From positions 1 through 64,000 of the forward strand of contig JANQPD010000044.1 in NCBI GenBank assembly GCA_028285465.1: 64,000 nt of DNA, in the 5' to 3' direction. How positions within the stretch are numbered: the stretch's first letter is position 1; every line of letters starts with the position of its first letter. Source of the DNA: Owenweeksia sp. (GTDB taxonomy: Bacteria > Bacteroidota > Bacteroidia > Flavobacteriales > Schleiferiaceae). The notes below the pieces were generated by a model. That model was not told the DNA's origin and did not search any database. It was given only the letters and a program-made list of their open reading frames with translations. The position numbers and the translations under genes are program-made. Of this stretch, positions 15,132-34,986 are shown one piece after another.

Positions 15132-16485
15132 TCTTTGCCTGTTTGTTAGGTTCACCCGAATGTTCCGCTTCATAATAATCCGGCGGGAAACCGTTGATCT
15201 GCCGCCATAGTTCATACCAGATGGGTACATCCAGAAGCAGGGCAAAACTATTGGCTCCTGCGCCTACCCGCAAACCTTTGGGCCAGGGAGCCTCTTCTTT
15301 GTCCGGGGCAATCAATATACGGTAGCGGCCGTTTTCGCTGGTGAAATTGTCAATCGCCACAATCTCTCCCCCAAAAGTACCTGTAGAGATACCCGGCCAA
15401 CCTGAAAATATTATAGCGGGCCAACCGTCAAACTGAATGCGTATGTCTTGCCCTTTGTTCAGCAATGGCAGGTCTAAGGGTTTTACATACATTTCTACAG
15501 CCAGTTGGTACTCGGCCGGCATGATGGTCACTAAGCGTTCTCCTTCTTTAAGGGTTTCTCCAATACCGGTAAGCACGGCTTTGGTAATATACCCATCCTG
15601 CGGAGCGGTAATGTAATAAAAGCCGGTACGTACGCTATAATTACTGTACTGGTTCTGCAACTTGGTAACACTGGCTTCCGCATCATACATAGCGCTTAAG
15701 GTGGCGTATTTTTCGCTTTCAGCTTTGGATATTTTATCCTTGAAATCTGCGCGTATGGAATTCAGTTGTACACGGGCGTTGATCACATCGTTACGCGAGC
15801 TCAGGAGCTTACTCTCCTGTGAAATGGTTTTGGCCTGGGTTTCCTGAAGCTTGAGTTTCCGGTTTTCCAGGTCTGTTTTTGATTTCAAGCCTTGTTCAAA
15901 GAGCTTTTCAAAGCGCTCAAACTGCGCGGTGGCGATCTTCTCATTGGTACGGGCTGCTTGGAGGTCAATGCTATCGGCGGTGACCTTTAACTTAGATTGT
16001 TCCAGCTTGTTCCGGGCCTGCTCCAGCTTTAACCTCAGGTTTGCATTCAGTGCATCGATCTGGCTGTCCAGGGCCTTTACTTTTTCCATATAAGAAAGCA
16101 CGGAAGACTCTTTGGCCTTGATCTGCTCTTCGGTACGTTGCAATAGGTTGGGATCGAAGTACGCGTCTTTGATCTCCGAAATATTCACGATGGTATCGCC
16201 TTTCTGCACAAAGTCGCCTTCCTGTACATACCATTTCTCGATCCTGCCCGAAATAAGCGAAGGAATGGATTGAGGACGTTGTTCCGGCTGTAAGGAAGTG
16301 ACATACCCTTTGGCCCTGATGTTTTGTGTCCAGGGCAAAAAGAGTACGGCAAGTGCCAGGAGGGCCGTAGATATAATGATCGTATTCCGCTTGCGCTTGC
16401 TTCTAAGCTTGTTAAAAACAGAAAGAGATTTGTAATTGTCGCGATTGATGCTTCCCGCAACGCTCTTTTCAGATATGTTTAGCAT
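15112..16485 (-). CDS. HlyD-family membrane-fusion (adaptor) protein
   Basis: 457-residue periplasmic adaptor. A short cytoplasmic N-terminus is followed by one transmembrane helix (residues about 35-52, NTIIISTALLALAVLFLPW). The lipoyl-like half motif (ISGRIEKWYVQEGDFVQKGDTIV), a long coiled-coil hairpin (about residues 95-275), and the second lipoyl half (ITAPQDGYITKAVLTGIGETLKEGERLVTI) follow. The C-terminal beta-barrel domain ends in a charged Lys/Glu tail. It bridges the ABC protein in the inner membrane to the TolC protein. The gene overlaps the ABC gene by 7 bases and the TolC gene by 20, consistent with translational coupling and fixed stoichiometry. Confidence 0.9.
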   Translation of the reverse strand: MLNISEKSVAGSINRDNYKSLSVFNKLRSKRKRNTIIISTALLALAVLFLPWTQNIRAKGYVTSLQPEQRPQSIPSLISGRIEKWYVQEGDFVQKGDTIVNISEIKDAYFDPNLLQRTEEQIKAKESSVLSYMEKVKALDSQIDALNANLRLKLEQARNKLEQSKLKVTADSIDLQAARTNEKIATAQFERFEKLFEQGLKSKTDLENRKLKLQETQAKTISQESKLLSSRNDVINARVQLNSIRADFKDKISKAESEKYATLSAMYDAEASVTKLQNQYSNYSVRTGFYYITAPQDGYITKAVLTGIGETLKEGERLVTIMPAEYQLAVEMYVKPLDLPLLNKGQDIRIQFDGWPAIIFSGWPGISTGTFGGEIVAIDNFTSENGRYRILIAPDKEEAPWPKGLRVGAGANSFALLLDVPIWYELWRQINGFPPDYYEAEHSGEPNKQAKNEKSEK

Positions 16486-18182
16486 GGTATCTGGTCTTTT
16501 AACTCGTTGAACGTGCCGGATTGTATCAATTCTCCATCTTTGAGCAACAATATGCGGTCCATTCTCTTTAGTAGCTTTTCGTCATTAGAAGCCAGGATAA
16601 GCGTTGGGCAGCTGTCGGAGCAGATATACTCAAACCACTTTTCCACCACGCCGCGTTCTACTTCGTGCCAGGTATCTTCCATCAAAAGCAAAGTGTGTTT
16701 ACCCAGCAGACTACGCGCCATAAGAATGCGGCTGCGGATGCTATTTGCCAGCCCTATACCGGAAGGAGGCAAAACCGTTTGCAGGCCATCCGGTAAGCCT
16801 TCTACGAATTTATCCAGGCCGGTAAGCTTTAAGATACTGTGCATGCGGTCTTCCTCCACCTCTTCCCTCTGCAAAGTAATGTTTTCCGTAAGGGAAGCTT
16901 CAAAGATCTCTTCTTCCCTCAGGTTATCTCCTATAGAGGTGCGAAGGCTTTGTATGTCCAGGTGATGCAGGGGAATGTTGTTGTAAAGTAAATTTCCATC
17001 AAACTTATCGAACAATCCGGCCACCAGGTGTAAAAGGGCTGATTTACCGGCCCCCATATTGCCGGCCAGCCCAACCTTCTCGCCAGAGGCAATATCAAAG
17101 CTTACGTTTTTCAGGATCATCCGTTCCTGGTCCTGTGGCGAACGCAACACGATATCTTTGGCAGTAACTGCCAGGCCACGGCTCCGTTCTTTGAGGGGCT
17201 GCCCCCCATCGGTTTGTTCCATTTCGAGATCCGTAACTGCCCCTACTTTCTCCAGGCCGGTCAACACATCATAAATGGTTTCCATGCTGAGGATGAGCTT
17301 TTCCACGGAACTGATCACCAAAAGAATGATGATCTCCGCGGCCACAAACTGCCCGATGTTCATTTCTTGCTGAAACACCAAAAAGCCCCCCAAGATCAAA
17401 AGTGAACCGGTAATCAATACTTTAAGCCCAATCATGGCTCCGTATTGCCGGATCAACACTTTAAAGTGTTTTTGCCGCGCATTCAGGTATTCCATGCTCA
17501 GATCATCGGTCCGTTGCATGGGCAACTTGGTAGAGCCCGCCATTTTAAAGGTAGAGAGGTTACGGGCTACTTCTTCGAGCCATCCCACTAGTTTGTATTT
17601 GTATTTGCTCTCTACCAGGCTAGTGCTAAGCCCCCTTTGTGTGGTAATGTAAAAAAAGGCGATTAGCGACAGTACAAGCAGTACGCCAAATGCAATGAAG
17701 AACGGGTGGTACATAGCCAGTAACAACAGGCCGAAAATGATCTGCAAAGCGGCCAGTGAAAAATCGAATAAGATCTTGGACAGGCCTTTTTGGATGGTAA
17801 GGATGTCGAAAAAGCGATTTACGAGTTCGGGCGCATAGCTGTTCTTTAAGGCGCTTAGTTTGAGGCGTGGTAGACGGAAAGCAAACTCCATGGAGGCATT
17901 GGCAAATATTTTCTGTTGTATGGTTTCCGCACTGGCCAGCTGGTAGATCTGGAAGATACCCGCCAGGGTAAGCCCCACCAGCACCAATACCACCAGCACG
18001 ATCCAGGAAGTAGAAGTAGTGCCACTTTGTATTAAGTTAATAATGGCCTGAATACCCAAAGGGATACTCAGGTTGAGCAAACCATTAAAAAGAGCGTAGA
18101 TATACACGTTTGCCAGAAGATCTTTCTGTGTGGCCAAAAGGCGAAAAAGTCTTCTAATGGGGGTTATTTTTTCTGTTGTCAT
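16479..18182 (-). CDS. ABC exporter subunit with degenerate ATPase domain
   Basis: 567-residue half-transporter: six membrane helices (residues about 20-310) of the type-I exporter fold and a C-terminal nucleotide-binding domain (about 335-567). Walker A is intact (GNMGAGKS, residues 374-381). The other catalytic motifs are altered. The Q-loop position reads GDNLREEEIF with Arg at 422 where Gln is expected. The signature LSGGQ is LANSI (478-482). Walker B ends LLLMED rather than LLLLDE. The switch His is Asn533. No peptidase-C39 domain precedes the membrane part. The gene overlaps TetR upstream (ATGA) and HlyD downstream. The partners indicate a tripartite exporter; whether it hydrolyses ATP normally is doubtful. 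Substrate unknown. Confidence 0.85.
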   Translation of the reverse strand: MTTEKITPIRRLFRLLATQKDLLANVYIYALFNGLLNLSIPLGIQAIINLIQSGTTSTSWIVLVVLVLVGLTLAGIFQIYQLASAETIQQKIFANASMEFAFRLPRLKLSALKNSYAPELVNRFFDILTIQKGLSKILFDFSLAALQIIFGLLLLAMYHPFFIAFGVLLVLSLIAFFYITTQRGLSTSLVESKYKYKLVGWLEEVARNLSTFKMAGSTKLPMQRTDDLSMEYLNARQKHFKVLIRQYGAMIGLKVLITGSLLILGGFLVFQQEMNIGQFVAAEIIILLVISSVEKLILSMETIYDVLTGLEKVGAVTDLEMEQTDGGQPLKERSRGLAVTAKDIVLRSPQDQERMILKNVSFDIASGEKVGLAGNMGAGKSALLHLVAGLFDKFDGNLLYNNIPLHHLDIQSLRTSIGDNLREEEIFEASLTENITLQREEVEEDRMHSILKLTGLDKFVEGLPDGLQTVLPPSGIGLANSIRSRILMARSLLGKHTLLLMEDTWHEVERGVVEKWFEYICSDSCPTLILASNDEKLLKRMDRILLLKDGELIQSGTFNELKDQIPC

Positions 18183-24127: not shown

Positions 24128-25858
24128 TTAGTTTTGAGGGGCATTTCTACTTTGTTTCAACGTATTCAGCAAAAAGGAAATAAAGATCACCAGCAGGCAG
24201 CCTACCACGTTATACCAGAGGTACTCTACTTTTAAACGGGTAAACAGGGGCCATTGGTACACCTGCGCAAAATGCAGGATAAGCACGCAGGCTTCTGCAA
24301 TAAGTGCGCTCCAAAAAATAGCACGGGCTTTTATGTGTTTGATGAAAAAGGCTACTATGAAAATGCCGAGTATGGTGCCATAAAAAAGAGAGCCGAGCAC
24401 GTTCACCATTTCGATCAGGTTATCAAACAATTTGGCCACCAGGGCAAAACCTATGGCCACCGCTCCCCAGAATACCGTAAGCCACTTGGATACCCGAAGC
24501 TGCCGTGCCCCGCTTGTGTTGGGGTTGACCAGGCGTTGGTAAAAGTCTATGGAGGTAGTAGTGGCGAGGGCGTTTAACTCACCACTGGTACTGCTCATAG
24601 CCGCTGAAAAGATAAGCGCTATGATTAGTCCCACTACACCCACAGGAAGAAAATCCATCACAAAAGTGAGAAAGACATAATTTGTGTCTTTCACCTTGAA
24701 ATTGGCATCACTTTGTTTCAATAAAGCTTTTACTTCCTGCCGTAGAGCATCGTCCCGTTCCACGGCTTTCACAAAGTTTTTTTCGGTGATGGTTATAGCC
24801 GTTAGGTTTTTGCCCGAGAGGGCCTCCTGGTACTGGCTTCGCGCTTTCTGTAAGTTCTGGTATTCCGCATCGTATTTTTTTTGCAGCTGCGCCAGCCGGG
24901 GAGCATATTCAGTTTGGTACACGTCTTCAAGAGCTACCTTATTAAAGAATACAGGAGGTTGTACAAAGAGGTAAAAAACAAAAACCAGCACACCTATAAA
25001 AAGAATGAAGAACTGCATGGGTACTTTCACCAAGGCATTAAAGATCAAGCCCAGACGGCTCTCTTTCAGGCTTTTCCCGCTAAGGTAACGCTGTACCTGG
25101 CTCTGATCCGTACCGAAATAGGAAAGGGCCAAAAAAAAGCCCCCGGTAAGGCCGCTCCATACCGTGTACCGTTGATTCAGGTTAAAGTCCAGGTCGATAA
25201 CCTGCATGCGGCCTACGGCACCGGCCATACGCAGGGCATCGGGTACATTGGTGTACTCCCCCAGCCTGTCAAGCAAAAGAATAAAAGCCAACACTAAGCC
25301 TAGCATAATCACGCCCATTTGCCATTTTTGGGTGATGCTTACTGCTTTACTGCCGCCGCTAACGGTATAAATGATGACCAATACGCCAACAAAAAGATTG
25401 GTGAAGTTTAAATCCCACCCCAGCAAGGTGCTTAAAATGATGGCAGGGGCAAAGATGGTAAGTCCGGCCGCCAGTCCGCGCTGTATCAAAAAAAGAGAAG
25501 CTGCCAACAATCTCGTTCTCAAATCGAAGCGGCTTTCTAAATATTCATACGCGGTGTACACATTGAGCTTGTAATAAATAGGCAGGATAAAAGCGCAGAT
25601 AATGACTATAGCGAGGGGTAAACCAAAGTAAAACTGCACAAAACCAAGGCCCGACTCATACCCCAGGCCGGGAGCACTTAAGAAGGTGATGGCGCTCGCT
25701 TGCGTAGCCATTACAGACAAGCCTATGGTGAACCAGTTTAAATCCTTTCCTCCTCCTAAAAAGTCCTTTACTCCCTTGTTTTTACGCGTCTTCCAGGTAC
25801 CATAGGCTACAATACAAAATAGGGTACCGAAGAGTACTATCCAATCAAGCAACTGCAT
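24128..25858 (-). CDS. Sodium:solute symporter (SSS family) with insertion
   Basis: 576-residue inner-membrane Na+-coupled transporter with about 13 membrane helices. Family landmarks are DFLGGGKDLNWFTIGLSVMATQASAITFLSAPG (helix 1-2), YTAYEYLESRFDLRTR, WSGLTGGFFLALSYFGTDQSQVQRYLSGKSLKESR (the SSS signature region) and AMSSTSGELNALATTTSIDFYQR. An extra stretch of about 95 charged residues (300-393), predicted coiled-coil with heptad-like RLAQLQKKYDAEYQNLQKAR, lies between two helices and would project from the membrane. Solute unknown; by operon context it may be a sugar amide or organic acid released by the upstream deacetylase. ATG start touches the stop of the 33-aa gene with no gap. Confidence 0.88.
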   Translation of the reverse strand: MQLLDWIVLFGTLFCIVAYGTWKTRKNKGVKDFLGGGKDLNWFTIGLSVMATQASAITFLSAPGLGYESGLGFVQFYFGLPLAIVIICAFILPIYYKLNVYTAYEYLESRFDLRTRLLAASLFLIQRGLAAGLTIFAPAIILSTLLGWDLNFTNLFVGVLVIIYTVSGGSKAVSITQKWQMGVIMLGLVLAFILLLDRLGEYTNVPDALRMAGAVGRMQVIDLDFNLNQRYTVWSGLTGGFFLALSYFGTDQSQVQRYLSGKSLKESRLGLIFNALVKVPMQFFILFIGVLVFVFYLFVQPPVFFNKVALEDVYQTEYAPRLAQLQKKYDAEYQNLQKARSQYQEALSGKNLTAITITEKNFVKAVERDDALRQEVKALLKQSDANFKVKDTNYVFLTFVMDFLPVGVVGLIIALIFSAAMSSTSGELNALATTTSIDFYQRLVNPNTSGARQLRVSKWLTVFWGAVAIGFALVAKLFDNLIEMVNVLGSLFYGTILGIFIVAFFIKHIKARAIFWSALIAEACVLILHFAQVYQWPLFTRLKVEYLWYNVVGCLLVIFISFLLNTLKQSRNAPQN

Positions 25859-25960
25859 CTACGCGTAGTATTGGGTAATGAAATAGAAGAGAATGATCTC
25901 TAAAAAAAGCACCAGCAATACCAGGGTATACAACTGTTTCCAATTTGTAAACAACCTCAT
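25859..25960 (-). CDS. 33-aa single-span membrane peptide
   Basis: A short complete gene: ATG at 25960, TAG ending at 25859. The product begins MRLFTNWKQLYTLVLLVLFL, contains one hydrophobic helix of about 21 residues, and ends ITQYYA. Its ATG overlaps the TGA of the deacetylase gene (ATGA), and its TAG is directly followed by the ATG of the symporter, so all three are spaced as a translationally coupled unit. Such exact packing is hard to explain by chance. It may be a small subunit or regulator of the symporter. I do not recognise a family. Confidence 0.7.
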   Translation of the reverse strand: MRLFTNWKQLYTLVLLVLFLEIILFYFITQYYA

Positions 25961-28437
25961 GACCGGGGTTTTGGGGTATAGCTCAGCAAATTGGCCAAAA
26001 GGCGGTAAGCCCCGGGTACCCCTGCCGGCAACTCCCTGAAAAAGGAAATACCCGTATATATAAAAGCTCCTTTACCATAATCTGCTACCAGAAGCCCCCC
26101 CGGTAAGTCCTGCTCGCCTTCATCATGCCAGGCCAGGGGAGTTTCGTAAGCTTCATCCCACTCGTCGGCAAAGTAAAGGCCACGTTCCTGTACCCAATCC
26201 TTAAAATCATCTTCCGTAAGCGTATTTGGGGAATTAAGTACCTCATGATCAGGCAATAAGAACATAGCCCGGGCATCCTCCTCCGTCACTCTTTTGCGAC
26301 TCAGGCTAAACGGATAAGGGCCGATATCCGTGCTCAATAAGTCTCGGGAGCGCGTATTGTACTGCACAATGTATGTGCCTCCGTTTTTCATGTATTCGAG
26401 GAGTATAGCATTGACTGAGGGAAGCCAATCTACCGTATTATACGCCCTTATGCCAGCCACGATTGCCTGGTACTCATGCAGGTCATAGGTACGCACTTTT
26501 TCTTCATCCAGCACATCTACCGCATAACCCATTTGCCGGATAGCTTCCGGCACCTTATCGCCTGCTCCCATAAGGTAAGCGATCTTGCTGCCTCTTTTGG
26601 CCAGTGGAAAGCTTACCAGTTTGGGTCTGGCCTTATTGAAGACAACCCGCTTGTCGATATGCGGGTAATCCAGCTCGGTCATTTCCATAACCGGAACACC
26701 CATGCCTTCTTCTTTGTAGGTCATGCTCAAATACGCCACACTGCTGCTATCCCTAGGCTCTATAGTTACCTGCACTTCTTTTCTTTGCTCCGCTGCCGGC
26801 AGGTTTACCCGGGCAGGTGTGAGTATAAAACCCGGTGCGTTTAGTTCTATAATACGGGCCTGCTTCCCGTAGTTCGTAAAAAGCACCGATAACTTTTGTG
26901 CAGTGGCGCTGGTAAAAACGAGGTTTTCCTCAGAAATGCTCGCTAAAACAGGAGGTACCACCGCTACCGGTTTTTCTATTTCTCCTTCTACCCTATCGGA
27001 ATATTTATAGCGCAAAGGCCTTTGCATTTCTACCCTCTGATCACCGATCATCACTTCAAAAAGGGCGTACAGAACCGGGTCATTTTCAGGTTTACCCAGG
27101 TTATCGGGATCCTCCAAACGGAAGAGGGCATCGTACTCTTTTTTCAGCCAATACGCCTGGCTGCTTAATCCCGGGTGGATGTATATCTTTCCTGTATACT
27201 GCTGCAGGGTATTTACGAGGCTTTGGTTCACCTCTTCTGACCAGAGTATACGCCCTGTTCTATCCGCAATTGTCATTTTTTTAAGCGTAGCAGGCCGTGT
27301 GCCCCGCTGCAAGATCTCCAGGCGAAAAGCTAAAGAATCCTGCTCGCTCACCAGTTCCCGGGCACCAAGTGCTTCTGCACGCAGACCGCTTACCATACAA
27401 AGTATCTTCTTGATCTTTTCCCGAAATACGTTTCGCTGAAAATCATCTTCTATAGCCGCGGCTTGCTTTTTAAGCCTCAGAAGTGCTTCCAGGCTTTTTT
27501 CCGGTTGCCGGAAATCAAAGGCATGGAGCGCCTCAGCCAGTTCTTGATCAATTTCTTTCGCCCCATATGCCGCCCAATTTTGGGGTATGCCTTCGAAAAC
27601 ATCGCCAAGCGCTTTTTTGCCCTTCACATATTTCAAGTATTCCTTTTGACTTCCGCGGGCAATGGATACACCAAACCCCTGGCTTTTATGCTGGGTACGG
27701 CTTAAGGAGGCAAGCTCGTTGTACGATTTCCCCAGGTTTGCGTCATAGCCTCCTACATCCATAACCAGGTAATCGTTGCTATGCCTTGCCAGGCTGTCTA
27801 GCGGAAGGCCCCACCAGGTACTCGTATTCCAATACAGGCGATCGGGCTGCCAGGTATGCAATCCGCTTTGAAGTTGTTGAGGCTGATAACGTGCATCCCC
27901 GGCCAGGTCGAAAGCTTCTTCCGCCAATAGGGCGGAAGCAGTGTGGTGCCCATGTCCGGCTCGCTTATCCGGAGGAAAGCGCGTGATAATGATGTGCGGT
28001 TTAAATTTTCTTATCACATATACCACATCAGCCAACACTTCTTCTTTACGCCACTTATCAAAGGTTTCGGTTGCCGTTTTAGAGTACCCAAAATCAACCG
28101 CACGGGTAAAAAACTGGGTACCGCCATCTATTGCCCTGGCCTGCATCAACTCCTGCGTGCGCAAAACACCCAGCTTGTCACCCAATTCATTTCCAATCAG
28201 GTTTTGCCCCCCATCGCCTCGCGTAAGCGATAAATAAGCTGTTTCCGCCCCGGCTCCATTTGACAGATATGAGATCAAGCGGGTGTTTTCATCATCCGGG
28301 TGTGCTGCCACATACAAAACCCGCGCAGGGTTGGTGAGTTTCTTTAATTCATGCACTATTTCCGTACTGCTCTGGCTCTTTCCGCCAGGCATGAAAAAGA
28401 GACAAGCCAATGTGAAACAAAAAAATTGCTTTTGCAT
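25957..28437 (-). CDS. PIG-L/LmbE-family deacetylase, large exported form
   Basis: 826-residue secreted or periplasmic protein. Signal peptide residues 1-21. The N-terminal LmbE domain contains the zinc motif AAHPDDE (His46, Asp48, Asp49) and the distal HGHHTASALLAEEAF segment at about residue 172; the family removes N-acetyl groups from amino sugars or related amides. A beta-sandwich middle region follows. The C-terminal 200 residues (YQAIVAGIRAYNT, NGGTYIVQYNT, GKGAFIYTGISFFRELPAG) resemble the ThuA/GATase-like fold. Such large two-domain forms are frequent in Bacteroidota. It starts a run that continues with the 33-aa peptide, the symporter and the lyase-like gene. Confidence 0.85.
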   Translation of the reverse strand: MQKQFFCFTLACLFFMPGGKSQSSTEIVHELKKLTNPARVLYVAAHPDDENTRLISYLSNGAGAETAYLSLTRGDGGQNLIGNELGDKLGVLRTQELMQARAIDGGTQFFTRAVDFGYSKTATETFDKWRKEEVLADVVYVIRKFKPHIIITRFPPDKRAGHGHHTASALLAEEAFDLAGDARYQPQQLQSGLHTWQPDRLYWNTSTWWGLPLDSLARHSNDYLVMDVGGYDANLGKSYNELASLSRTQHKSQGFGVSIARGSQKEYLKYVKGKKALGDVFEGIPQNWAAYGAKEIDQELAEALHAFDFRQPEKSLEALLRLKKQAAAIEDDFQRNVFREKIKKILCMVSGLRAEALGARELVSEQDSLAFRLEILQRGTRPATLKKMTIADRTGRILWSEEVNQSLVNTLQQYTGKIYIHPGLSSQAYWLKKEYDALFRLEDPDNLGKPENDPVLYALFEVMIGDQRVEMQRPLRYKYSDRVEGEIEKPVAVVPPVLASISEENLVFTSATAQKLSVLFTNYGKQARIIELNAPGFILTPARVNLPAAEQRKEVQVTIEPRDSSSVAYLSMTYKEEGMGVPVMEMTELDYPHIDKRVVFNKARPKLVSFPLAKRGSKIAYLMGAGDKVPEAIRQMGYAVDVLDEEKVRTYDLHEYQAIVAGIRAYNTVDWLPSVNAILLEYMKNGGTYIVQYNTRSRDLLSTDIGPYPFSLSRKRVTEEDARAMFLLPDHEVLNSPNTLTEDDFKDWVQERGLYFADEWDEAYETPLAWHDEGEQDLPGGLLVADYGKGAFIYTGISFFRELPAGVPGAYRLLANLLSYTPKPRS

Positions 28438-28555: not shown

Positions 28556-28613
28556 TATGACATCGTTTTGTTACCCAAGCCGTATTTTAGTAGTCCCTAA
28601 AATTCAACGTTCT

Positions 28614-31600
28614 ATGATTAAAAAACTACTGCTCAGTGTTTTATGCACTGGAATGACTGTAATTTCTTACAGCCAGAATGAAGAAGGCAAACATGAAGGA
28701 GCACTGTTGCTCACAAACCACACAGTAGTACTAAGTGATTCTGAACCAACACTTAACCGTTTGCCCTTTTTTGATGGGAAAGTGTACCTGGTAATACAGG
28801 GCATCAACCACAAACTGGACGCAGAAGCCGTACCGGGTTTGACGTACTTAGAGTACCTTCCGAAAAATGCAGCACTCTTTAGCCTGGATTACAACAAAGC
28901 GGAAAGTATTTTAACCCGTTTACAGAGTTGGGATGCACGTATGGCACCCCTGGAAAGCGAATGGAAGCTCTCCAAAAGATTGTTTACGGGAGACATTCCC
29001 TCCTGGGCCTGGTTGGATAACAGTACCATAAAGATTTGGCTGGGCTTGCATAAAGATGTTTCCCTGGTAAAAGCCCGGGCTGCATTGAAGCTTAACGGCC
29101 TGGAAATTTTAGAAACAGATCAGCAACACAATCTTATAGCCGTGCGTGTAAAGGCGGACGAAGCGACTGCATTGGGGCGTTATCCTTTTGTGATGCATGT
29201 ACAGGAAATGGAAGATCCGGGGAGCCCGGAAAATTGGACGGCCCGTACCAGCCATCGCATTAATTATTTGCAAAGCGAAATACCGGGCAACTCAAAATAT
29301 GACGGCAGCGGCGTAACCCTGAGTTTAGGAGACGATGGGGCCATCGGACCACATATAGATTACAACGGCCGCCTTGATCAATCCAGCGCAACGGCCTCAA
29401 CCGGTGATCATGGTGACCACGTAGCCGGAACTATTTTCGGAGCGGGCAACCTGGATCCCAGGGGCCAGGGAATGGCACCCGGGGCAGATATTGTGTATTA
29501 TACTTACCCGGCCAACCTGAGCACCACGGACAGCGACTACAATTCGAAAAACGTAAGACTCACTTCCTCCTCTTACAGCAATGGTTGCAATGCGGGTTAC
29601 ACCAATTTCACCCGGCAGATGGATCAGGATTATATAGACAACCCTAACCTGATCCATGTTTTCTCTGCAGGAAATAGTGGCACCAGTAATTGCAATTACG
29701 GAGCAGGTTCCGGATGGGGCAACGTAACCGGGGGACATAAGATTGCTAAAAATGTAGTGGCTGTAGCCAACCTTACACGTCTGGATGGACTGGCTAGCAG
29801 TTCCAGTCGTGGGCCGGCTAATGATGGAAGGATCAAACCGGATGTAGGTGCCGTTGGTACCAGTGTATATAGTACCACTAACCCTAATGCGTACACATTA
29901 AAAACAGGGACATCTATGTCGTGCCCCGGAACAAGTGGCACTCTAGCCGTTCTGTACGAAGCGTATAAAGCCAACAACGGAGGTACTGAACCAAACGGGG
30001 CCCTCTTAAAAGCCATTTTGATGAACTCAGCCGAAGACCTGGGGAATCCCGGCCCTGATTTTCGTTTCGGTTACGGGCGCATAAACGCACGCAAGGCCTT
30101 ACAGATTATTGAGAATGGGGATTATATTACGGGTAGCCTAAGCAATGCCGGAGTTGATCAACACACCCTTACCATTCCGGGCAATGTGGCACAAGCGAAA
30201 ATCATGCTTTATTGGGGAGATGTACCTGCCAGCACCATTGCCGCCAGAGCCCTGGTAAACGACCTGGATATGACCGTTACGTATAACGGCAATACCCTCC
30301 TTCCCCTGGTGCTGGACCCAACTCCGGTTGGGAGTAACCTCAATGCGAATGCCGTTCCTGCGCGCGATAGCCTCAACAACACGGAACAGATCGTTATTGA
30401 TAACCCGGCAGCCGGCGACCTTACGGTAAATGTGCAGGCATTCAATGTTCCCCAGGGTACGCAGAGCTATTATATTGTATATACTTTCGTAGAAGATGAA
30501 GTAGTACTCACTCATCCGGTTGGAGGCGAAAAATTTGTACCGGGTACCACCGAGATCATTCGTTGGGATACCCCACAGGGTACAGGAACGTTCACCCTTG
30601 AATACAGCACGGATAACGGTGTGAGTTGGAACAACATCAGCAGCACCATTCCTGCTACTTCGCGCCACTTCAATTGGAATGTGCCAAATACCGTAACAGG
30701 AGAAGCCAAAGTACGGGTAAGCAGGGGCAATGCCAGTAATAGCCCGGGTACTTTTACCATTGTAGGTGTACCGGGTAATCTTCAGTACGTAAGTGCCTGC
30801 CCGGATACCCTGACCATAAGTTGGGATGTGGTACCGCAAGCTGCGGGTTACGTAGTCTATCGTTTGGGAAACAGGTATATGGATTCCATTGACTATACCG
30901 TTTCCAATGTATACCGTGCCGGAGGTGTGCCCAGTATCGGGGAAGAGTGGTTTAGTGTAGCTGCCGTAACTGCTGATGGTGGCATCGGGCTAAGAGCCAA
31001 TGCACGGGAGCGTCCTACCGGGGTATTCAACTGTATTGTAAAAGAAGACCTGGCTGTAGACGCTATTCTCTCTCCTCCAAGTGGAGAACTGCCCGATTGT
31101 TTCAACCTGTCCAATATTCCCATAAGGGCCAACATTGTCAATAATGGAGTAGACAGCTTGTTTGGGTTTACCATAGGGTACATCTTCAACAATGGTGTGC
31201 CTGTGCTTACCTCCTTTACCGATACATTAGCCCCCGGGGATATGTATGCCTTTACTTCTAACGCTTCGGTGAGTGTTACAACAGGAAGTATTTCAAGTAC
31301 TAAGCTATGGGCCGCCGCCAACAATGATCAAAACCCGTACAATGACACCATTACTTTAAACTCCTTACTCTATTCAGGGCAAACGGTAGGCATTCCTTAT
31401 GCAGATGATTTCGAGAACAGCGTTCCCCTGTGCAATACATCTTCAAATTGCGGTCAGACCGTTTGTGGCTTATCCGGGGGATGGCGGAACATTACCAGCG
31501 GAACTTTTGATGCAATTGACTGGAGGGGAAATAACGGGAGTACTCCTTCACAGGCAACAGGCCCCAGTGTAGACTTCAACCCAGGTACGGCTAATGGAAG

Positions 31601-33503
31601 ATACCTTTACCTGGAAGCTTCTGCTTGTTTTGAGCAACAGGGCATGTTGCAAACCCCCTGTTTTGATCTAAGCACATCCACCAGCCCTCTTTTTAGTTTT
31701 TATTATCATATGCTAGGCAACTTTATGGGAAGCTTGTCTGTAGATGTTTACGATGGCGACAAGTGGCACATGGATGTTATTCAACCCATTGCAGGTAACC
31801 AGGGAAATACCTGGCTGAAAGCCGAAGTTGACCTGACCAACTTTGCAGGCAGTACGGTTATTGTAAGATTCAGGGGCAATACCGGGTCTGACTTCAGTAG
31901 CGATATAGCCATCGACAACATTAACCTGATTGAAAACTCAGCGGCTCCTGTTAGTGCTTTTACAGCAGATGCCAATACTACTTGTATAAATGGAACGGTT
32001 GGGTTTAGTGATGTGAGCACCAATTTTCCCAATAGCTGGTTGTGGAGGGTAAGCCCCGCTGCCAATGCTCTTTTTGTAAATAACGACAGTACCAGCGCTA
32101 ACGTAGAGATCACCTTTACTGCAGCCGGTAATTACGACATTACCTTGATCAGCAGCAACAGTAATGGCAGCGATACATTGGTTCAAGCTGCCTTCGTAAC
32201 CGCCAGCGCCGGAGCTTCCCTGAGCGCTTTCGAAGGGTTTGAACCTTCGGGAATACCCCAAGACTGGGCCATTGTGAACCCCGATGGATTTACAGCCTGG
32301 AACAGCGCGCAGGTAATAGGAAGCAATGGAACCTCAACTATATCTGCCTTTTTCGATCACTTCATTAATCCAACCATAGGAAGCCGGGACGACCTGATCG
32401 GGATCAACGTAGACCTTCTAAACGAAACGAACCCCCTACTTTATTTTGATGTGGCCTATGCGCAGGGGCTGAACAATATCGATGATTCCCTGATCATCAT
32501 GGTATCCACCAATTGCGGCACGGATTTTATCCGCACAGCATACGCCAAAGGGGGCAGTGCCCTGGCCACGGTTAATCCAAGAGGCAGTAAATTCATTCCC
32601 CAATCGGCTGGCGACTGGCGTAGCGACAGCCTGGACCTAAGCCCTTATGTGGGTACAAACATCAAAGTGAACTTCGTAACCAAAAGCAGCCGTGGCAACG
32701 CGCTATACCTCGATAACATCCAACTGGTAAATGGAAATGTGCAGGCACCTGTAGCGGATATCCTCTATAACAATGCAGATGTTTGTGTAAGGGATACGGC
32801 TACCTTCAGTGTTCCAACACCTGGAGCAGGCGTACAGTATAGCTGGACTTTTGGCAACCTGGCTTCTCCTAATATTGCTACCGGGCCAGGGCCGCATAAA
32901 GTCATATACCTGGCCAGCAGCAGCCAGCAGGTTGTTACGTTAACAGCTACCAATCCGGGAGGACGCTCTACCGATGAATTGGTATTGGCGGTGGGGCAAA
33001 CACCTATTGCCCTGAATTCTTTTCAAACAAACGGGTTACAGGTTGACTTTACCGACCTGAGCATTAATATTCCCACTTCCTGGCTCTGGACCTTTGGCGA
33101 TGGTGACTCCTCTACGGCCCAAAGCCCCAGCCACACCTATGCCACCGGAGGTACCTATACAGTGGTACAAACGGCATCCAATAGCTGCGGAAGTACGGAT
33201 AGAACGGTAACTGTAAACGTATCGGGTATTGGCCTGGAAGAAGCTGGTAACATTGGTGGAATAAGCTTATACCCTAACCCGAGCAAAGGAGCGTTTACGT
33301 TTTCTGTGCATATGCGCACCGGTGAAAAAGGACGCTTGCAAATAAGTGACCTGAGCGGAAGAGTATTACGTATTGAAGACATCCAACTCAAAGCAGGGGA
33401 AAATAAACTTCCCCTTGACCTTTCCAATGCCGCGCAAGGCATATACCTGCTTACTTTAAAAACAGATACAGGCGAAAAAAGCATCCGGGCTTTTAAAGAG
33501 TAA
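28614..33503 (+). CDS. Secreted S8 subtilisin-like protease, T9SS cargo
   Basis: 1629-residue serine protease. The signal peptide MIKKLLLSVLCTGMTVISYS begins at the ATG at 28614; the open frame starts 19 codons earlier but those residues precede the signal. A prodomain (about 25-220) is followed by the S8 domain: Asp in LSLGDDGA (240/241), His in DHGDHVAGT (266), oxyanion Asn in SAGNSG (354), and Ser in GTSMSCPGT (434). Then come Ig-like sandwiches, a CARDB-like part, MAM/choice-of-anchor regions (LFSFYYHMLGNFMGSLSVDV) and PKD domains (WLWTFGDGDSSTAQSPSHTY). The C-terminal type-A sorting domain is LYPNPSKGAFTFSV. It should be an extracellular or surface protease in peptide scavenging. Confidence 0.92.
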   Translation: MIKKLLLSVLCTGMTVISYSQNEEGKHEGALLLTNHTVVLSDSEPTLNRLPFFDGKVYLVIQGINHKLDAEAVPGLTYLEYLPKNAALFSLDYNKAESILTRLQSWDARMAPLESEWKLSKRLFTGDIPSWAWLDNSTIKIWLGLHKDVSLVKARAALKLNGLEILETDQQHNLIAVRVKADEATALGRYPFVMHVQEMEDPGSPENWTARTSHRINYLQSEIPGNSKYDGSGVTLSLGDDGAIGPHIDYNGRLDQSSATASTGDHGDHVAGTIFGAGNLDPRGQGMAPGADIVYYTYPANLSTTDSDYNSKNVRLTSSSYSNGCNAGYTNFTRQMDQDYIDNPNLIHVFSAGNSGTSNCNYGAGSGWGNVTGGHKIAKNVVAVANLTRLDGLASSSSRGPANDGRIKPDVGAVGTSVYSTTNPNAYTLKTGTSMSCPGTSGTLAVLYEAYKANNGGTEPNGALLKAILMNSAEDLGNPGPDFRFGYGRINARKALQIIENGDYITGSLSNAGVDQHTLTIPGNVAQAKIMLYWGDVPASTIAARALVNDLDMTVTYNGNTLLPLVLDPTPVGSNLNANAVPARDSLNNTEQIVIDNPAAGDLTVNVQAFNVPQGTQSYYIVYTFVEDEVVLTHPVGGEKFVPGTTEIIRWDTPQGTGTFTLEYSTDNGVSWNNISSTIPATSRHFNWNVPNTVTGEAKVRVSRGNASNSPGTFTIVGVPGNLQYVSACPDTLTISWDVVPQAAGYVVYRLGNRYMDSIDYTVSNVYRAGGVPSIGEEWFSVAAVTADGGIGLRANARERPTGVFNCIVKEDLAVDAILSPPSGELPDCFNLSNIPIRANIVNNGVDSLFGFTIGYIFNNGVPVLTSFTDTLAPGDMYAFTSNASVSVTTGSISSTKLWAAANNDQNPYNDTITLNSLLYSGQTVGIPYADDFENSVPLCNTSSNCGQTVCGLSGGWRNITSGTFDAIDWRGNNGSTPSQATGPSVDFNPGTANGRYLYLEASACFEQQGMLQTPCFDLSTSTSPLFSFYYHMLGNFMGSLSVDVYDGDKWHMDVIQPIAGNQGNTWLKAEVDLTNFAGSTVIVRFRGNTGSDFSSDIAIDNINLIENSAAPVSAFTADANTTCINGTVGFSDVSTNFPNSWLWRVSPAANALFVNNDSTSANVEITFTAAGNYDITLISSNSNGSDTLVQAAFVTASAGASLSAFEGFEPSGIPQDWAIVNPDGFTAWNSAQVIGSNGTSTISAFFDHFINPTIGSRDDLIGINVDLLNETNPLLYFDVAYAQGLNNIDDSLIIMVSTNCGTDFIRTAYAKGGSALATVNPRGSKFIPQSAGDWRSDSLDLSPYVGTNIKVNFVTKSSRGNALYLDNIQLVNGNVQAPVADILYNNADVCVRDTATFSVPTPGAGVQYSWTFGNLASPNIATGPGPHKVIYLASSSQQVVTLTATNPGGRSTDELVLAVGQTPIALNSFQTNGLQVDFTDLSINIPTSWLWTFGDGDSSTAQSPSHTYATGGTYTVVQTASNSCGSTDRTVTVNVSGIGLEEAGNIGGISLYPNPSKGAFTFSVHMRTGEKGRLQISDLSGRVLRIEDIQLKAGENKLPLDLSNAAQGIYLLTLKTDTGEKSIRAFKE

Positions 33504-33519
33504 AACGATTACATTTAGC

Positions 33520-33551
33520 AAAAGCCGCTCTTTAAACAGGAGCGGCTTTTT
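33520..33551. terminator. Bidirectional terminator between subtilase and symporter
   Basis: A perfect 11-bp stem (AAAAGCCGCTC with GAGCGGCTTTT) around a 9-base loop, followed by a T-run on the plus strand and preceded by A residues that serve the minus strand. The minus-strand symporter stop codon (33532-33534) lies within the loop. Confidence 0.8.
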
Positions 33552-34986
33552 CTTTGCCTTTCCGCAAGGCAAACAAGCCTGTAAAGGTCAGGAAACCATT
33601 CATAATCAAATGCTCAAAGCTAAAGTGATACCCCCATTCAGAAGAAGCATACTCTTTGAATAAGTAGCTAAGCACAGGGGCCAATACCGCGATGAGGGGC
33701 ACCCACCTGTCGTATACACGCCACCTGGTGAATAATCCAAAAGCATACATCCCCAACAAGGGGCCATAGGTATAGCCCGCCAGGGTAAAAAGCTCTGCAA
33801 TAACCGAAGAGTCGTTAATGCTATATTTGAAAAAGAGAATAACAGCCAAGAGTATAATACTGAACATCAAATGTACGCGGATACGCAGGCGTTCACCGGC
33901 CTTTGCCTCTTTCTCCTCTATCCCTAAAAAATCAACACTAAAAGAAGTGGTCAAAGCGGTAAGTGCCGAATCTGCACTGCTGTAGGCAGCTGCGATCAAT
34001 CCTACCATAAAAAAGACCGGCAGCGCCATTCCCAAACCACCGCTTAAAGCTACTGCCGGGAAAAGGCGGTCTTTAGTAGCCTGTATACCAAACTCAGCTG
34101 CATAATCATACAACAGAACCCCCAGCGAAAGAAAGACGAGGTTTACCGCCACTAATATGATGCTTAACCAAAACATATTTTTCTGGGCATCCTTCAGACT
34201 TCGGCAACTCAGGTTTTTCTGCATCATATCCTGGTCAAGGCCAGTCATTACTATGGTGATGAAGGCCCCACTGAAAAACTGCTTCCAAAAAAAGCGGCTG
34301 TCCTTAAAATCATCAAAAAAAAAGGTTTGGCTCATAGGAGAATCGGCAATGTAGGCCACCAGTGAGTCCGCACCGATGAGCGCATCTTTGATGAGGTAGA
34401 TGCTGATGCCTACTGCCAGCAACATAAAAGTGGTTTGTAGGGTATCTGTCCAGATTATGGTTTTAATGCCCCCCCGAAAAGTATACACCCAAATGAGCGC
34501 CAGGGTAATGAGCACCGTTACCCAGAAGGGAATACCCAGCGTTGAAAATATGGCATAATCCAGTACAATAGCTACCAGGTAAAGCCTGAAAGCCGCTCCA
34601 ATCGTACGCGACAACAAAAAGAAAAAAGAGCCGGTGCGGTAGCTGTAAAGCCCAAAACGTTGATCAAGGTAACTGTAAATAGAAGTGAGGTTGAGGCGGT
34701 AATAAAGGGGCAATAGTACTTTGATGATCACCAGATATCCCAATACATACCCAAGTACTACCTGCATATAGCTGAACTGGCTCCCTTCTACCCATCCGGG
34801 CACCGAGATAAAGGTTACCCCGGAAAGTGAAGCCCCTACCATACCAAAGGCCACTACAAACCAGGGGCTTTGGCGGTTACCCAAAAAGAAGCCTTTATTA
34901 TCCGCTTTACGCCCCGTAACGTAAGAAACACCGATAAGCAACAAAAAATAAAGCAACACAATAAGAAGTATGGTAATGGGCGCCAT
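33532..34986 (-). CDS. Sodium:solute symporter (SSS family)
   Basis: 484-residue Na+-coupled transporter with about 13 membrane helices. Landmarks are KGFFLGNRQSPWFVVAFGMVGASLSGVTFISVPG at the N-terminus, SIYSYLDQRFG, ITIVMTGLDQDMMQKNLSCRSLKDAQKN (the SSS signature region) and AAYSSADSALTALTTSFSVDF. Unlike the other symporter in this window it has no coiled-coil insertion and is of standard length. Substrate unknown. The ATG start is 68 bases from the divergent recR gene. Its stop codon is inside the loop of the shared terminator, so it ends as tightly as possible against the convergent subtilase gene. Confidence 0.9.
   Translation of the reverse strand: MAPITILLIVLLYFLLLIGVSYVTGRKADNKGFFLGNRQSPWFVVAFGMVGASLSGVTFISVPGWVEGSQFSYMQVVLGYVLGYLVIIKVLLPLYYRLNLTSIYSYLDQRFGLYSYRTGSFFFLLSRTIGAAFRLYLVAIVLDYAIFSTLGIPFWVTVLITLALIWVYTFRGGIKTIIWTDTLQTTFMLLAVGISIYLIKDALIGADSLVAYIADSPMSQTFFFDDFKDSRFFWKQFFSGAFITIVMTGLDQDMMQKNLSCRSLKDAQKNMFWLSIILVAVNLVFLSLGVLLYDYAAEFGIQATKDRLFPAVALSGGLGMALPVFFMVGLIAAAYSSADSALTALTTSFSVDFLGIEEKEAKAGERLRIRVHLMFSIILLAVILFFKYSINDSSVIAELFTLAGYTYGPLLGMYAFGLFTRWRVYDRWVPLIAVLAPVLSYLFKEYASSEWGYHFSFEHLIMNGFLTFTGLFALRKGKEKAAPV

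Follow-up and report, generated by a model that had tools for sequence, protein, structure and literature searches.

A conserved single-helix small protein encoded beside one clade of SSS symporters in Bacteroidota is a probable accessory subunit of the transporter

Small membrane proteins such as DUF4212/TIGR03647, DUF485 (YjcH) and DUF997 (YhdT) are partners of various bacterial sodium:solute symporters (SSS) and typically comprise about 80-110 aa with two transmembrane (TM) segments. Even smaller is the MetS-type subunit of NSS transporters (NCBIfam NF033493), a very short single helix whose gene lies beside that of a LeuT-fold transporter, and KdpF of the KdpFABC complex is equally a single-helix subunit of 30-50 aa on a large membrane protein. 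AcrZ on AcrB (PMC7267776) and CydX on cytochrome bd (PMC4325964) are further single-helix subunits of 30-50 aa associated with large membrane proteins. In humans, the single helix of MAP17 (PDZK1IP1) binds TM13 of the glucose transporter SGLT2 (SLC5A2), is required for robust activity and surface expression of SGLT2 and adds thermal stability (PMC10803289).

The small gene addressed here, which reads MRLFTNWKQLYTLVLLVLFLEIILFYFITQYYA over 33 codons, is located between the genes for a PIG-L/LmbE-family deacetylase and an SSS symporter in a stretch of 64,000 nucleotides from Owenweeksia sp., the whole of which is referred to as the window (Table 1). A preliminary description of the locus had proposed that the gene opens inside the deacetylase stop codon and closes directly before the symporter start codon; both junctions are seen in the sequence and all coordinates given there are right, with the minus strand as the orientation that had been left unstated. 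With 33 codons, the gene is near the usual length limits of gene calling and may stand as hypothetical in some annotations. The N-terminus of the deacetylase resembles a signal peptide, and no specific NCBIfam model matches the protein at cut-off. Divergent from the deacetylase operon, the window encodes a secreted subtilase of 1648 aa with MAM, PKD and Por secretion-tail domains (28557-33503, plus strand), followed by a second SSF symporter of 484 aa (33532-34986, minus strand) that is devoid of such a small gene.

Table 1. Features of the small gene and its neighbours, with positions in the window
Feature	Position	Strand	Evidence
Small gene; putative single-pass membrane protein, predicted N-in/C-out	25859..25960	-	Homologues, purifying selection, helix periodicity
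ATGA overlap; start codon of the small gene (25960-25958) within the deacetylase TGA (25959-25957)	25957..25960	-	Sequence
TAG of the small gene (25861-25859) adjoining the symporter ATG (from 25858), zero spacer	25858..25861	-	Sequence; offsets in 172 loci
SSS (SLC5-type) sodium:solute symporter, 576 aa; partner tracked by the small gene	24128..25858	-	PF00474, TIGR00813, AF2 fold
PIG-L/LmbE-family deacetylase, 826 aa; upstream operon neighbour, not the partner	25957..28437	-	PF02585 (Pfam), E=1e-15
Symporter codons 469-495 (end of TM9, TM9-TM10 loop, first half of TM10); strongest covariation with L18 of the small protein	24374..24454	-	Covariation, suggestive only

Symporter orthologues were gathered from 40 close genomes and from 395 genomes distributed over the phylum, 143 of which possess the symporter as defined by an E-value below 1e-60. 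At the 28 close loci, a frame of 30-44 codons with the same pattern is found wherever the deacetylase adjoins, L027 being the sole exception, and among 115 loci at least 104 contain a homologous frame of 30-50 codons just upstream of the symporter orthologue, with plausible divergent versions at L113, L114 and L117 (the last at E=0.25) accounting for two or three of the loci beyond these. A profile built from these first loci, before those of a second set composed of named genomes were fetched, recovered the frame in 79 of 79 evaluable loci of the latter (E 2e-4 to 6e-18), the two locus sets overlapping in part (L120 corresponds to G002). Besides Flavobacteriia, Cytophagia and Saprospiria, the second set includes two Verrucomicrobiota (L141, Opitutales, and L196). 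The encoded proteins share the core motif W-x3-Y-x2-V-L-x2-L-x3-I-x2-F-Y-x2-T-x2-[FY], in which the frequency of W and most of that of Y is partly fixed by the anchoring of the rows. When the entire genome from which the window derives is searched with the profile, the frame between the deacetylase and the symporter is the sole significant match.

In 58 phylogenetically independent pairs compared over a core of 28 codons, pS amounts to 0.66 and pN to 0.17 (pN/pS 0.27; dN/dS approximately 0.13), with 380, 224 and 730 substitutions at the first, second and third codon position, respectively. The small gene thus evolves as a protein under purifying selection. Short open reading frames are common in any sequence and many of similar length are on the list for the window; that the frame opened by chance within an intergenic spacer is nevertheless refuted by its phylum-wide conservation and by its dN/dS, which leaves this explanation with a negligible probability. 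The preliminary description had anticipated for a real gene that a frame of 30-40 codons with the same hydrophobic pattern and variable third positions occurs upstream of SSS symporter genes elsewhere, and both were found. Rather than being broken or absent while the spacing is kept, which had been named as the outcome that speaks against a gene, the frame is kept with a constant pattern while its register relative to the symporter varies. Judged from this protein-level conservation, the frame is a real gene as had been suggested.

The single hydrophobic helix that the preliminary description had recognized is equally supported, as conservation recurs along the hydrophobic stretch with a period best fitted by 98 degrees (range 98-100; p=1e-4 in 20000 shuffles), which is characteristic of a lone alpha helix that is buried on one side. 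The conserved face consists of W7, Y11, V14, L18, I22, F25, T29 and Y32; of these, W7 and Y11 served as anchors and were excluded from the periodicity test, but land on the same face. The mean net charge is +1.7 in the N-terminal flank versus +0.4 at the C-terminal end, which suggests an N-in, C-out topology. The N-terminus of SSS symporters is expected to be extracytoplasmic, with which this topology of the small protein is compatible.

The linkage to the symporter that had been proposed is also evident across genomes, as the presence of the small gene follows that of the symporter. At E<=0.005, a small-gene match is found in 126 of the 143 genomes with the symporter versus four of the 252 genomes without (Fisher p approximately 4e-78, not corrected for phylogeny). 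The 40 nearest genomes contain at most one match below 1e-3 each, and no match is found beside the other SSS paralogues, of which there are several per genome. Among the four exceptions, the match in G064 precedes a truncated symporter, whereas the remaining three matches are marginal (E 0.002-0.004), with those in G130 and G406 falling in longer unrelated frames. At the G064 locus (L231; G064:C19:29500-34500), the small gene is well conserved in front of the truncated symporter gene, apparently a recent loss in progress. Conversely, at least four of the 17 misses (G118, G188, G261 and G327) hold divergent versions in place. The symporter is retained with no detectable small gene in G011, G001, G014, G199, G150, G173 and G181, and the small gene is also not found in G019, a genome only 70% complete; that there are a few lineages which possess the symporter without the small gene indicates that the subunit is not strictly essential. 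G331 possesses two copies of the small gene and symporter (C1:21451-23249 and 3845706-3847486), where one symporter match has five in-frame stops and both small-gene matches score identically. Hydrophobic single-helix peptides of such a size include toxins and stress peptides, and the small protein could by the same token be a free-standing membrane regulator or a toxin-like peptide placed in the operon by happenstance. Such a peptide is highly improbable at a gene that is normally present in one copy per genome together with the symporter orthologue, and absent from genomes without the symporter except for marginal matches and the one beside the truncated gene.

In 119 of 172 loci the deacetylase gene is located directly upstream, and in G020 the small gene has stayed with the deacetylase while the symporter is encoded elsewhere, as would be the case if the small protein were a membrane anchor or activator of the LmbE/PIG-L deacetylase. 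On the other hand, the small gene is beside the symporter with no adjacent deacetylase in the remaining 53 of the 172 loci, two genomes (G109 and G396) have kept a strong deacetylase orthologue while both the symporter and the small gene are absent, and in five genomes (G011, G150, G173, G181 and G199) deacetylase and symporter are neighbours without the small gene. As the 53 loci and the two genomes demonstrate that the small gene tracks the symporter and not the deacetylase, a role in the service of the enzyme was set aside and is considered unlikely. At L230 (G075:C61; 14573-15455 on the minus and 16414-18145 on the plus strand), the symporter gene is divergent from a short LmbE-like gene of 294 codons, hence the link between deacetylase and symporter may persist with a shorter enzyme. 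That deacetylation releases a product which is the substrate of the symporter is only a guess.

Stop and start codons of the small gene and the symporter gene overlap or abut in most loci, with a four-base ATGA overlap in 81 of 172 loci, most others within 12 bases and, altogether, an offset between -12 and +4 in 160 of 172 loci. This arrangement could reflect a mere translational coupler or leader peptide that hands ribosomes on to the start codon of the symporter gene and is otherwise inert. An inert peptide does not agree with the strong amino acid selection on one helix face, and, while a leader has to reside in cis immediately before the symporter gene, some conserved copies are located 35-190 bases upstream and others are fully detached. 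In G020, the small gene is located behind the deacetylase gene with the symporter on another contig, where coupling is impossible; in G312, it has neither neighbour beside it, with the symporter gene 108 kb away and the deacetylase gene on another contig; and in the g99 genomes G075 and G063 (L230 and L235), it is found 15 kb from the symporter with its sequence intact, a placement shared by G091 and G137. These conserved detached copies indicate that the small protein acts in trans and exclude a purely cis role, so that the inert coupler is already largely refuted and very unlikely. Judging by the common ATGA overlaps, the genes for the symporter and its putative subunit seem to be translationally coupled as well.

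The symporter is a member of the SSS/SLC5 family, as it scores above cut-off against PF00474 (145.8 bits, cut-off 22.8; E=2e-42) and TIGR00813 (244, cut-off 184) and has a LeuT-type SSS fold in the AF2 model, for which SiaT, NIS and SGLT2 are the top Foldseek matches. By our own assignment from AF2 secondary structure, the protein possesses 13 TM helices, TM0 to TM12 only. Between TM7 and TM8, at residues approximately 307-390, a helical-hairpin insertion of about 75 residues is present, which is poorly conserved and also found in orthologues; this insertion is predicted to be extracytoplasmic and might offer another protein a place to dock. Two AlphaFold models of a read-through fusion of the small protein and the symporter, in which the stop codon is read as Q and which contain a short artificial linker, show the SSS fold with a pLDDT of 89.9 and 85.7, while the small helix is of moderate confidence (block pLDDT approximately 59-82).

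Covariation between the two proteins was calculated as mutual information with average-product correction from 171 small-protein/symporter pairs. The top signals connect L18 and E21 of the small protein with residues 488, 484 and 495 on one face of symporter TM10, and equal the top intramolecular pairs in strength. Much of this signal derives from Flavobacteriaceae (N18/Y21 with L484/I488), the same combination occurring in a Saprospiraceae-like lineage (name inferred) without the other residues of Flavobacteriaceae; in lineages partly named by inference, I/V488 accompanies H18 (Saprospiraceae) and G18 (f38), and L18 is mostly found with L488. With a tree built without that region, about three independent pairs agree and none disagrees (sign test p 0.06-1, median 0.25). 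Upon branch-based correction, residue 469 in TM9 ranks first for L18 among the positions of the symporter, with 488 second and 495 fourth, and several residues beyond TM9/TM10 reach nearly equal scores. Several strong pairs, notably those with symporter residue 268, did not survive this correction and were discarded as effects of clade. Covariation thus points weakly to the TM9/TM10 surface as the candidate site, and the register would be consistent with the small helix running parallel to TM9 and antiparallel to TM10.

As far as can be read from sequence, the small gene is coding, co-occurs with one symporter only, conserves one helix face and may persist detached. Very probably, the product is a conserved single-pass inner-membrane protein that serves as the dedicated accessory subunit of one SSS clade in Bacteroidota and some Verrucomicrobiota. 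With its basic N-terminus in the cytoplasm and the C-terminus in the periplasm, the protein would be made in step with the symporter through translational coupling and could pack with the conserved helix face against the lipid-exposed surface of the transporter, possibly at TM9/TM10. Its role would be a stabilizing or regulatory one, whereby the small protein might stabilize the symporter or tune and bias its conformational cycle, much like MAP17 on human SGLT2. The symporter clade, present in roughly a third of the sampled Bacteroidota genomes (143 of 395), is then probably incomplete as now described and seems to have a second subunit which is missing from the profile libraries; if the peptide is left out, heterologous expression or structural work on the clade may be unsuccessful or misleading.

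The small protein is a new family, small transporter subunits as such being already known. No Pfam or NCBIfam family matches the small protein or 56 members of its family, a profile search of the PDB retrieved no family but a single designed TM peptide (E=0.55), and literature searches of partial coverage yielded no description of the small protein or of a deacetylase-symporter operon. A review of SSS transporters in prokaryotes from 2021 contains none of the words 'subunit', 'accessory' and 'auxiliary' (PMC7918813).

Like the DUF4212/TIGR03647, DUF485 and DUF997 proteins, the small protein is a membrane protein encoded just upstream of an SSS gene, although in difference to DUF4212/TIGR03647 its homologues are mostly 30-50 aa long with one hydrophobic segment. 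DUF4212/TIGR03647 is matched by none of the 56 members in NCBIfam and is not among the 25 Pfam families listed out of 35 with weak matches, and DUF485 and DUF997 are absent among the listed matches of the 56 members. With the MetS-type subunit, the small protein shares the very short single helix encoded beside a LeuT-fold transporter, while the partner is an NSS transporter there versus an SSS transporter here and no NCBIfam model matches the small protein. AcrZ, KdpF and CydX are alike in size and in their single helix, but have unrelated partners; one of 56 members matched the AcrZ profile at E=0.02, which is not significant over the set. The closest functional precedent is MAP17, which crosses the membrane once and is paired with an SSS/SLC5 transporter, as the small protein presumably is. 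A MAP17-like complex that would stabilize or activate the symporter gains indirect support from the co-occurrence, the conserved helix face and the weak covariation. MAP17 is longer and not operon-encoded. A sequence relation is missing, as Pfam MAP17 is matched by a single one of the 56 members with an E of 0.1, which is at the level of chance, and TM13, the helix to which MAP17 binds, is absent from the 13-TM model of the symporter; hence, the small protein may resemble MAP17 in its action without being a MAP17 protein. Conceivable, though rather doubtful, is a one-helix subunit seated on the moving module of TM9 and the gating helix TM10, at a site unlike that of MAP17 and evolved independently, and if this were true, single-helix control of SLC5-type transporters would have arisen more than once. 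The small protein would provide a short bacterial test case for the question raised by SGLT2 and MAP17, the tuning of an SLC5-fold transporter by a single helix.
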